Shown here one piece after another: positions 33,099 to 39,531 of a stretch of DNA of 64,000 nt. Positions within the stretch are counted from its first letter, which is position 1, and each line of letters opens with the position of its first letter. Below the pieces are notes generated by a model. It saw only the letters and a list, made by a program, of their open reading frames with translations, was not told the DNA's origin and searched no databases. A program made the position numbers and the translations under genes. Source of the stretch: Natronococcus sp. CG52 (GTDB taxonomy: Archaea; Halobacteriota; Halobacteria; Halobacteriales; Natrialbaceae); contig NZ_CP099391.1 in NCBI RefSeq assembly GCF_023913515.1, forward strand, positions 1,178,001-1,242,000, in the 5' to 3' direction.

Positions 33099-33168
33099 AC
33101 CGGGCCGCGCGTTTTGTCGGTTGCAGTCGCCTATGAACGCTTATCAACACCGTTCGTGTCTAGGAGAT

Positions 33169-34512
33169 ATGGCCGTTACCGAACCCGTCACCGTCGGGGT
33201 GTTGAGCCTCCACACCAGCAAGGAAACGAAGGCGATACTCAACGCCGTCGACGCGCTGGGACACGATACGGAGTGGCTTCGAGCGGAGAATACGTCGATC
33301 AGCGTCACCGGCGGGAGCGTCTCCATCGAGCCGTCGGTCGACGTGATCGCAAACCGGATGCTGCTGTCGAACACCGAACAGCCCGCCGAGGAACTCGGGC
33401 TCGCGAACACGTTCTCACAGCTCATTCCGATGCTCAACGAGCCGTCCACGGTACTGACGGCGATCCACAAGCTCTCGACGGCGACGACGCTCGCGGCGAA
33501 CGACGTCCGGACTCCCGACGTCACCCTCGCGCTCAACAGCGACCAACTCAACGCCGCGCGCGGTCAGTACGGCGAGGAAGCGGTCTACAAGACGGCGATC
33601 GGGACCCACGGCGGCGGAACGTGGAAGGTCGGTGCCGACGATCCGATCAACGCGAAGGTGGGGAACCGATACGCGTTCCTGCAGGAACTCATCGACCGCG
33701 ACGACGCTCGCCACCGCGACGTCCGCGTCTACGTCGTCGACGACGAAGTCATCGGCGCGATGTACCGCTACGCGCCCGATAACGACTGGCGAACCAACGT
33801 CGCGCTCGGCGGCTCCGTCGAGGATGCGACCGACGACCTCCCCGAAGAAGCCCGGCAGATGGCCCGTCGTGCGTCCGAGGCGATCGGTCTCGACTACGCC
33901 GGCGTCGACCTCGTCGAGGGCGACGAAGGCTGGTTCGTCCTCGAGGTCAATCCGACGGCGGGATTCAAGGGGCTCTACCAGGCGACCCAGATCAGTCCGG
34001 CGCCGTACATCGCCAAACTCGCGATCGAACGCGCCGGCGGTGAGGTCGACGAGGAGCGCGTTCACGACCTCTCGAACGTTCTCGACGACTCCCGGCCGAT
34101 GGCCCAGCCCATAGAGGCGACGTCGCCGGAGACGGAACCGTCCGTGATCGGCTACACCGAGGAAGTGGTTCTCTCGGGAACCAGCGGCTCGAAATCCGTG
34201 CTGGCAAAATCGGACACGGGTGCGACGCGGACGAGCATCGACACCGGTCTCGCGGCCGACATCGGCGCCGGGCCGATCAAATCCATCACGCGAATCCGAT
34301 CCGGCAGTAGCAAGACCGCGAAGAGCCGTCCCGTCGTCGACGTCGTCGTCGGGGTCGGCGGCAACCAGCACACGGTCACCGCGAGCGTCGAGGACCGCAG
34401 CCACATGGACTACCCGGTCATCCTTGGCCGAGATATCCTCAAGAACTACCAGGTCGACGTGAGCCGACGATCGGATGCGGACACACCCGACACCCCCGAA
34501 GAAGAGGAGTAA
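33169..34512 (+). CDS. RimK-type ATP-grasp ligase fused to a RimB-like retropepsin-fold protease domain
   Basis: 447 residues from ATG 33169 (upstream ATG at 33133 is also in frame; GGAG lies only a few bases before 33169). Residues 1-300: ATP-grasp of the RimK/LysX type with a Lys-rich nucleotide segment and metal-binding LEVNP (258-262). Residues about 325-435: a domain with DTGA at 349-352, the Asp-Thr-Gly active-site motif of retropepsin-like proteases (COG4067/RimB), ending in YPVILGRDILKNYQVDVSR. RimK adds glutamate residues to proteins or small molecules; RimB trims them. Fusion of both in one chain puts ligase and protease together. Confidence 0.82.
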   Translation: MAVTEPVTVGVLSLHTSKETKAILNAVDALGHDTEWLRAENTSISVTGGSVSIEPSVDVIANRMLLSNTEQPAEELGLANTFSQLIPMLNEPSTVLTAIHKLSTATTLAANDVRTPDVTLALNSDQLNAARGQYGEEAVYKTAIGTHGGGTWKVGADDPINAKVGNRYAFLQELIDRDDARHRDVRVYVVDDEVIGAMYRYAPDNDWRTNVALGGSVEDATDDLPEEARQMARRASEAIGLDYAGVDLVEGDEGWFVLEVNPTAGFKGLYQATQISPAPYIAKLAIERAGGEVDEERVHDLSNVLDDSRPMAQPIEATSPETEPSVIGYTEEVVLSGTSGSKSVLAKSDTGATRTSIDTGLAADIGAGPIKSITRIRSGSSKTAKSRPVVDVVVGVGGNQHTVTASVEDRSHMDYPVILGRDILKNYQVDVSRRSDADTPDTPEEEE

Positions 34513-34943: not shown

Positions 34944-37157
<2,214 letters not shown>

Positions 37158-37170
37158 GCGTAGCAGAACG

Positions 37171-37353
37171 TCAGAATCGGTGACCGTCGACGACGAACTG
37201 CTGGCCGTCGAGGACGAGATCCCCGACGCCGACGTCGTCGCCGACCTCGTCGAGTAACGCGCTCGCGGTCCGGCCTCGAACCTCGAGGGCCGCCGTTCGA
37301 TTTCTTCGCGTTCGTTCAATCCGCGATAGGCCGTCCGCTCTACAAGCGGTCAC
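37171..37353 (-). CDS. Possible small protein coupled to the repeat-protein gene (weak)
   Basis: 60 codons from GTG 37353, overlapping the upstream gene's stop by 4 bp (GTGA). The last half reads TASALLDEVGDDVGVGDLVLD, acidic and with a C/G-rich third position as in real genes, ending GQQFVVDGHRF. The first about 25 residues are Arg-rich and look less coding. No family recognised. It could be a real translationally coupled small protein or the 3' remnant of a longer gene. Low confidence. Confidence 0.35.
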   Translation of the reverse strand: MTACRADGLSRIERTRRNRTAALEVRGRTASALLDEVGDDVGVGDLVLDGQQFVVDGHRF

Positions 37354-38648
37354 TCGCCACGGAGGACGATCTCGTCGTCCGTGACCTCCGATATCTGCGC
37401 CGGTTCGATCGGGTAGTTGTCGTCACCGTGGCCGCCCCAGTCCAGCCGGGCCTTGAGCCGGTCGGTCAATCCGGGCTGAGGATCGATGTACGCCGTCTGC
37501 CCCTCGACCTCCGCGACGATGCCGACCGTCTCGCCGCGTTCGTCGACGACGTCTTTCCCCTGGTCGTCCTTCGAGAGTTCGATCGCCGGCTCGCCTGCCG
37601 GCGGTTCCGATTCGGTATCGGCCATGCCTTCCGCTCCGGCCGTCTCCATCTCCGATTCAGTGCCTCCGGCAGCCACATCCATATCCGATTCAGCAGCCCC
37701 GGCGGCCATCGTCTCCGAGTACTCCTCGACGTCGATGATCTCACCCTCGAGCAGATCACTGCCGATCACCTCGGATGAGACCAGTTCGGTTTCCTCGAGG
37801 ACGAACCGCAGCCGCCGCTCTTCGTCGATCTCCTCCTCGAGCGTTCGCCGCTCGATGAGTTCGCTCCGGACGGCGTCACCTTCGGCGCGGTTGCTCCGGA
37901 TGACCTCCTGTTCGAGGACCTCGTCGGGCGTGACGTCTGCGCGGACGACGTCGCTCTCGAGGATCGACCGCTGGACGCTCTCGAGTTCGATGTTCGTCTG
38001 GATCGTGTCGCTCTCGAGTTCGCCGTGCTGTTCGACGTCGACGTCGACCACGCGACTCTCGACGGTGTAGCGTTCGATCTCCTCGATCGTGTCCAGACGG
38101 CTCTCGTCGACGAGTACTTCGATGGTCTCGTCGTCCAGGAACTCGGTCTCGACGACGTCCCGGCGCAGCAGTTCGGAGTCGACGATCTCCCGTTCGACGA
38201 CGTCCGACTCGATCACTTCGCTCTCGATCGTGTCCCGTTCGACGACCTCCGTCTCGACGACCTGCGTCTCGACGATCTCGGTCGTCACGGTCTCGCCCCG
38301 CCGCAGCGAATCCTCGAATTCGTCCCGGCCGAGGTCGGCCCGTTCGAACGCCCGATCGCGCTCGACGAGTTCGAAGAAGCCCAGGCCCTCGCCTTCGCCC
38401 GCCGTCTCTTCTTCGTGGTAGACGAACACCAGATCCTCGTTCTCGAACGTTTCGGTGAACTCGTCCCAGGTGTACTCTTCGTGGTCGCTCCCGAGTTCGT
38501 CTCGGTGAGCGAACGAGTGACCGTGACCTTCGCCGCCGCGAATCGAAACGGGGACGGCGTCGTGGGCTTCGGCCCACTCTCTGATTCGTTCGGGATCGGT
38601 CGTCATTCGCCGTTCGTCGGGCGCGTCGTGGGGTGTATCGTTTGCCAT
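37350..38648 (-). CDS. Acidic repeat protein with pentapeptide period and C-terminal PRC-barrel-like domain
   Basis: 432 residues from ATG 38648 (an internal ATG at 38606 is the alternative). Residues about 15-105: an alpha-beta domain (TDPERIREWAEAHDAVPVS, YTWDEFTETFENEDLVFVY). Residues 124-178: about eleven copies of a five-residue unit x-[VIL]-[VIL]-[ED]-x (EIVET, QVVET, EVVER, DTIES, EVIES, DVVER, EIVDS, ELLRR, DVVET, EFLDD, ETIEV). Looser repetition runs to about 300. An acidic linker (about 315-355) follows, then a C-terminal PRC-barrel-like domain (KDDQGKDVVDERGETVGIV, PAQISEVTDDEIVLRGE). No signal peptide. Function unknown. Confidence 0.75.
   Translation of the reverse strand: MANDTPHDAPDERRMTTDPERIREWAEAHDAVPVSIRGGEGHGHSFAHRDELGSDHEEYTWDEFTETFENEDLVFVYHEEETAGEGEGLGFFELVERDRAFERADLGRDEFEDSLRRGETVTTEIVETQVVETEVVERDTIESEVIESDVVEREIVDSELLRRDVVETEFLDDETIEVLVDESRLDTIEEIERYTVESRVVDVDVEQHGELESDTIQTNIELESVQRSILESDVVRADVTPDEVLEQEVIRSNRAEGDAVRSELIERRTLEEEIDEERRLRFVLEETELVSSEVIGSDLLEGEIIDVEEYSETMAAGAAESDMDVAAGGTESEMETAGAEGMADTESEPPAGEPAIELSKDDQGKDVVDERGETVGIVAEVEGQTAYIDPQPGLTDRLKARLDWGGHGDDNYPIEPAQISEVTDDEIVLRGE
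38115..38279 (-). repeat. Eleven tandem five-residue repeats in the coding sequence
   Basis: Codes residues 124-178 of the preceding protein. The unit has two hydrophobic residues flanked by acidic ones and repeats every 15 bp at the protein level, though the DNA is not identical between units, so selection has kept the pattern while codons drifted. A five-residue period with inward-facing hydrophobics resembles pentapeptide-repeat beta-helices, but the residue classes (Glu/Asp in place of the usual Asn/Leu/Phe) differ. Confidence 0.6.
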
Positions 38649-38829
38649 CGGGGGCGGTAGAACCAGTCTGTACTTTAGTCAGCGTGGTCGTCTTGTCGAT
38701 CAGTCTTTCCTTTCTTCCGACCCCGGAGGGGGCCTGCAGTGGCGGGGTCGTAATCGACGGTTGTCCGGTTCCGGTGGTGATCGTTTCGCGGCTCGATGAG
38801 TCACAGTGATCGATTACCGGTGGACAGGT

Positions 38830-39420
38830 TCACTCCGATTCGTATTCGGCCCAGACGTACCGCGTCGCGACGCTTCGATACGGTCGCCACGGTTCGGCGA
38901 TCTCGCGCATCTCCCCGCGGGTCAGCTCCTCGCCGTTCCCGTACAGCGCCTCGATGCCGCGACGAACGGCGAGGTCGCCGAGGGGGAGCACGTCGGGCCG
39001 CTCGAGAACGAACAGGAGGTACATGCGCGCCGTCCACGCGCCGATACCCTTGATTTCGGTGAGGGCGTCGATCACCTCCTCGTTGGAGTGTTCGGCCAAC
39101 CCTTCTCGGGTGTAATCGTTCCGCTGGAAGGCCCTCGCGGCGTTCCGTACGTACTCAACCTTGCTTCGAGAGAGCCCCGCCTCACGGAGCGCCGCCTCGT
39201 TCGCGGCCAGTACGGTCTCCGGCGTCACGTCGTCCTCGAGGAGGTGGAACACCCGCTCGCGGACGGCCGCCGCGCTCGCGGTCGAGAGCTGCTGGTTGAT
39301 GATCGAGATGCAGAGTCGCTCGTACTCGTTCCAGTTCGGTTCGACGTAGGGATCGTGTCGCTCGACGAGGTCCGCCATTACGGGGTCCCGACGGAGGACG
39401 GGGTGTGCCTCTTCTAACAT
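38830..39420 (-). CDS. DNA-3-methyladenine glycosylase II-type (HhH-GPD, AlkA-like)
   Basis: 196 residues from ATG 39420; a GTG at 39438 would add six residues. Domain motifs: WNEYERLCISIINQQLS at the start of the HhH-GPD fold, the helix-hairpin-helix LTEIKGIGAWTARMYLL, and the catalytic aspartate in LPLGDLAVRRGI. It excises alkylated bases such as 3-methyladenine in base excision repair. AlkA-type length, without the extra N-terminal domain of bacterial AlkA. Monocistronic, with a 410-bp neighbourhood free of other repair genes. Confidence 0.88.
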   Translation of the reverse strand: MLEEAHPVLRRDPVMADLVERHDPYVEPNWNEYERLCISIINQQLSTASAAAVRERVFHLLEDDVTPETVLAANEAALREAGLSRSKVEYVRNAARAFQRNDYTREGLAEHSNEEVIDALTEIKGIGAWTARMYLLFVLERPDVLPLGDLAVRRGIEALYGNGEELTRGEMREIAEPWRPYRSVATRYVWAEYESE

Positions 39421-39531
39421 GCGCAGTTGTGGATACACGGTTACGGTTCCGAGAACGGATATGCGTCTCGGTTGGGAAGATAGCGGCTGGCGGGGAACGC
39501 GCTCGAGCGACGTGACGACCGTACTAGTGGT

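Follow-up and report, generated by a model that had tools for sequence, protein, structure and literature searches.

The stretch of DNA analysed here (the window) comprises 64,000 nucleotides from Natronococcus sp. CG52. On its minus strand, an open reading frame at 37350..38648 encodes an acidic, uncharacterised protein of 432 aa, in which an N-terminal alpha/beta module is followed by a domain of five-residue units (the pentad domain) and then by a PRC-barrel. This frame, first picked out from the letters alone, is a real gene of a three-module haloarchaeal family. Full-length orthologs were found in 16 named haloarchaeal loci, from Natronococcus, Natrinema, Natronorubrum, Haloterrigena, Halopiger and others, their best segments being 57–77% identical to the window protein; their alignment places the start methionine and the conserved blocks at identical positions. 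The window protein has 131 acidic and 36 basic residues and a pI of about 4.05, and inspection of its sequence revealed no apparent signal peptide or membrane segment.

The N-terminal alpha/beta module (residues about 17–80; 38409..38600, minus strand) has no Pfam name. AlphaFold2 placed in it a helix at 19–28, strands at 31–36, 45–48 and 56–58, a second helix at 61–70 and a last strand at 73–78. We observed that the first ~85 residues of the protein also match open frames of 90–116 aa elsewhere. A match of residues 17–38 to the Lsr2 DNA-binding domain (E 0.12) was judged to be due to chance. At the other end of the pentad domain lies a low-complexity acidic Ala/Gly linker (residues about 311–355; 37584..37718, minus strand), the length of which varies among the orthologs (alignment columns 320–415).

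The C-terminal domain (residues 355–432; 37353..37586, minus strand) was assigned as a divergent PRC-barrel from the PF05239 matches of its homologs. Twelve of 34 homologs matched this family (best 2.5e-5), but the window protein itself did not, even at E 10, so that the PRC-barrel-like end proposed earlier is upheld through the homologs and not through the protein's own sequence. With the C-terminus modelled at low confidence, Foldseek gave a weak match to the CdpB1/CdpB2 complex of A. fulgidus (probability 0.72, E 0.81) and another weak one to RimM. PRC-barrels have a role in haloarchaeal cell division through CdpB1/CdpB2 (PMC12186497). Several further places in the protein's own genome (G000) encode the same divergent type of PRC-barrel, in small or differently built proteins; these copies represent a haloarchaeal PRC subfamily that is often missed by PF05239.

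The pentad domain (residues 118–310; 37719..38297, minus strand) covers ~190 residues and consists of about 37 five-residue units of the approximate form [ST/R]-[ED]-[VIL]-[VIL]-[ED]. Its most regular block is at residues 118–178 (38115..38297, minus strand), where Fourier power at period 5 was 19.2 as compared with a maximum of 8.5 among 20,000 shuffles; over residues 222–310 it was 14.5, the shuffle maximum being 12.7. We used the 132 ORFs of the window and 526 neighbouring proteins as the background for the repeat score. Among the window ORFs the family ORF ranked first (21.4; the next scored 7.5), and the period-5 scores of the family proteins (minimum 12.5, median 17.3) can be compared with those of the neighbouring proteins, which average 3.6 and reach 13.9 at most. 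Five was the best period in all 137 homologs over residues 118–173 and in 136 of the 137 over residues 224–306. A one-residue register slip near 222–229 separates the first (118–222) from the second (222–310) period-5 block.

The sequence-only reading had described eleven units with a strict five-residue period and the motif x-[VIL]-[VIL]-[ED]-x at residues 124–178, followed by looser units to about 300. The period stands far above the shuffles, but the strict motif fits only 7 of these 11 units (the misfits are DTIES, ELLRR, EFLDD and ETIEV). The extent of the repeat, on the other hand, had been understated, as period 5 continues unchanged to about residue 306 apart from the single slip.

Asp and Glu make up 33% of the pentad region, against a mean of 18% in the neighbouring proteins. 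The acids E127, E132, E137, E142, E192 and E197 are conserved in 92–97% of the 137 homologs, and S143 (97%), S198 (91%) and R163 (93%) are likewise conserved. These every-fifth acids are better conserved than most of the V/I/L positions, which interchange. Across the region, conservation is position-specific with few gaps at 30–40% identity. The DNA of the units has diverged to a mean pairwise identity of 57%, while omega between orthologs over residues 118–310 is 0.26–0.47; therefore, purifying selection on the pentads is supported, in agreement with the earlier claim that the pattern is kept by selection. An internal duplication of the two halves was also considered. The halves aligned with an hhalign probability of 95.7, yet 25 of 60 shuffles of the pentad order scored as high, and hence there is no evidence of duplication beyond the shared pentad.

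When residues 118–310 were compared with Pfam, NCBIfam and PDB sequences, nothing convincing was found, and single weak matches of individual members were judged to be chance. Pentapeptide-repeat proteins are defined by at least eight tandem five-residue repeats of the consensus (A/C/S/V/T/L/I)(D/N/S/K/E/I/R)(L/F)(S/T/R/E/Q/K/V/D)(G/D/E/N/R/Q/K), with mainly L/F at the centre, an uncharged i-2 and a polar i+1 residue (PMC7337050). The roughly 37 tandem units over 118–310 are well above eight, but just 4.7% of 3816 pentads fit the consensus at all five positions. In this set the centre is L/F in 24%, i-2 is charged in 35% and i+1 is hydrophobic in 81%. PF00805 gave no match with the window protein at E 10, nor with 34 homologs at E 1. 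The repeat is thus unlike the known pentapeptide repeats, as had been noticed from the sequence.

Structure prediction, which had been suggested as a check on the repeat, gave good local confidence at the hairpins described below but poor confidence overall. With an alignment of 17 sequences that are 59–79% identical to the window protein, AlphaFold2 returned a mean pLDDT of 52.5 and a pTM of 0.27 for the whole protein, and 58.7 and 0.44 for residues 108–312. Strands appeared at about 140–170, 175–202, 259–285 and 288–305 in both runs, and the central blocks of the cropped run had pLDDT values of 83–91. The pentads are predicted by these models to form very long antiparallel beta strands, paired into hairpin 1 (residues 140–202, with strands 140–170 and 175–202; 38043..38231, minus strand; block pLDDT 83–91) and hairpin 2 (residues 259–305, with strands 259–285 and 288–305; 37734..37874, minus strand; block pLDDT 85–88). 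Confidence was low at about 118–145 and 201–258, much of it at pLDDT under 50. In 63 of 137 homologs the predicted tip of hairpin 1 is extended by an insertion (median 29 aa) after residue 174, and the remaining indels are mostly at 211–216 and 243 in a predicted loop; this placement lends modest, independent support to the hairpin model.

Covariation analysis by mean-field and shrinkage inverse-covariance methods (137 sequences, effective number 77–84) revealed neither a hairpin nor a solenoid ladder. Scores for charge and hydrophobic complementarity across the strands were no better for the predicted register than for registers shifted by five. In Foldseek and VIA searches with both models, E never fell below 0.001 and Z reached 7.2 at best, the matches being only to hairpins of pore-forming proteins and to generic sheets of four strands. 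For these three reasons we treat the fold as a prediction and not as a result. A transmembrane beta-hairpin pore is not supported, because there is almost no period-2 alternation except at 259–285 and, weakly, at 175–205. A five-residue period that puts hydrophobic residues on both faces of a strand is unusual for a flat sheet. It is possible, though we find it doubtful, that the [ST]-[ED]-[VIL]-[VIL]-[ED] pentads build a new beta fold, either as very large, twisted hairpins or as a solenoid of a new kind, that carries a carboxylate ladder with a step of five residues, is adapted to molar salt and provides a haloarchaeal PRC-linked scaffold.

The beta-helix or other solenoid that the sequence-only reading had put forward is disfavoured by the long antiparallel hairpins of the two AlphaFold2 runs. 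It is disfavoured only, since these models, of poor overall confidence, rest on 17 sequences and covariation was uninformative. In a beta-solenoid with five-residue faces, V/I would occupy the centre, with Ser/Thr/Arg two positions before and a second hydrophobic residue after it; the extra hydrophobic row could make it oligomeric, and its acidic outside could mimic nucleic acid, a property discussed for the negative surface of pentapeptide-repeat proteins (PMC7337050). The strict period over about 37 units speaks for such a structure, and Ser/Thr stands two before the first hydrophobic in 46% of the pentads overall, including the conserved S143 and S198, as at the pentapeptide i-2. However, i-2 is too often charged (as at R163) and i+1 too often hydrophobic, the amended consensus is fitted by the same small fraction of pentads, Pfam gives no pentapeptide match at E 10, and AlphaFold2 draws uninterrupted long strands and not coils; we consider the solenoid rather unlikely.

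We counted repeat-spanning matches by hand in about 117 of the 392 Halobacteriales genomes sampled, distributed over 8 families (f1, f4, f5, f7, f8, f12, f14 and f17); a wider count of 246 also takes in matches that are confined to the PRC part. From 295 genomes drawn from the phylum, 35 had a match, all within this same order, and no repeat-containing copy was seen in the sampled genomes outside Halobacteriales. Plasmid records among the listed matches come from haloarchaeal genera; where annotated, they read 'hypothetical protein' or 'PRC-barrel domain containing protein'. None of the viral contigs searched encoded a relative. A candidate self-paralog at G000:C1:2390796-2391701 was set aside, being another kind of acidic protein that contains a PRC-like stretch. 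One copy of the family gene (L072; G043:C1:3127603-3127964) is seemingly broken and spread over more than one frame; its genome also has an intact family gene (L057) on a 562 kb replicon.

Little recurs beside the family gene between distinct lineages, and among the 123 neighbours from about 40 neighbourhoods, each Pfam family was matched by 2 at most. In the window (34977–39438), katG, encoding a catalase-peroxidase, is convergent with the family gene. Most loci of the taxonomic family to which the window belongs preserve the order of katG, the family gene and an HhH-GPD-type glycosylase, and in L263, a distant locus, katG and the family gene are two genes apart. In genus g11 (L058, L061 and L062) the family gene is the next gene after dnaK, in the same orientation, and grpE lies upstream; in L061 and L062 it is directly followed by dnaJ, again on the same strand. 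This arrangement is an insertion into a chaperone cluster in one genus. A heavy-metal P-type ATPase adjoins the family gene in L063–L065. The three stress-related settings are each lineage-specific and are suggestive only. Elsewhere in the window (33121–34512), a 463-aa ORF encodes a fusion of a RimK-type ATP-grasp ligase with a putative ATP-dependent zinc protease domain at the C-terminus (PF08443, PF05618).

In bacteria, DUF2382 stress proteins are often joined to a PRC-barrel. The present protein might be the haloarchaeal counterpart of these general-stress proteins, with a protective or accessory function under oxidative, heat or metal stress, for which the neighbouring katG, dnaK/dnaJ with grpE, and heavy-metal ATPase genes would each provide a context. 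However, katG is convergent and not operonic with the family gene, and the neighbours differ between lineages. Moreover, DUF2382 (PF09557) matched neither the window protein at E 10 nor 34 homologs at E 1, and it was found in none of 41 related haloarchaeal genomes, although two control genomes do contain it. At the level of sequence these results speak against DUF2382, a fold like which had been named beforehand as one outcome that would undo the idea of a new repeat, and we regard the counterpart as distinctly unlikely; support for a stress-related role in general is weak, although such a role is possible.

A reading of the region as an acidic tether, extended and for the most part disordered, with the pattern as a row of short [VI]-[VI]-E-[ST] binding motifs for a repeated partner, would be in line with the stretches of pLDDT under 50, the excess of Asp and Glu and the pentad order of the compared halves, which is indistinguishable from shuffled order, but we hold it to be very unlikely in view of the position-specific conservation with few gaps, the scarcity of indels away from the predicted tip and loop, the high content of beta formers and a local pLDDT of up to about 90. 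Since the conservation is nearly gap-free, wholesale disorder, the other outcome named beforehand, is also unlikely.

The function that we infer for the haloarchaeal pentad protein is that of a soluble, conserved scaffold arm, acidic and rich in beta structure, to which a PRC-barrel is attached as the docking domain, a reading that we favour with somewhat less than even confidence. The N-terminal alpha/beta module is joined to the very acidic pentad domain, from which a flexible linker leads to the PRC-barrel. According to the predicted structure, the paired V/I/L residues of the long strands may make the core, and the acids that recur with a step of five would form a nearly invariant ladder on the surface. 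The pentad domain could serve as a scaffold or spacer arm that is rigid and tolerates salt, with the acid ladder exposed to cations or to a basic partner, and the PRC-barrel may dock to another protein, by analogy with CdpB1/CdpB2. This account would give a description to a widespread and conserved haloarchaeal domain that has neither name nor model in the libraries searched. Its period, which fits neither flat beta sheets nor the pentapeptide helix, could be tested directly by structure determination, and should the acid ladder prove functional, specific cation or partner binding could here be distinguished from general halophilic acidity.

We compared this protein with three known systems. 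It resembles the pentapeptide-repeat proteins (PF00805, Rfr fold) in having a tandem unit with a hydrophobic centre and a negative surface, and often Ser/Thr at i-2 and Asp/Glu at i-1. It differs from them in that V/I is commoner than L/F at the centre and a second hydrophobic residue occupies i+1 (81%), and in that AlphaFold2, at low overall confidence, shows long antiparallel strands in place of a right-handed quadrilateral beta-helix. With the DUF2382 plus PRC-barrel proteins it shares a Val/Glu-rich, beta-prone region combined with a PRC-barrel, whereas its repeat has a strict period of five and no sequence match to DUF2382. Finally, it is akin to the PRC-barrel proteins (CdpB1/CdpB2, PF05239) through its C-terminal domain of that type. 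Most PF05239 matches in these genomes lie in open frames of about 85–110 aa; compared with other PRC-barrel proteins, the barrel of this family is divergent and carries two more modules.
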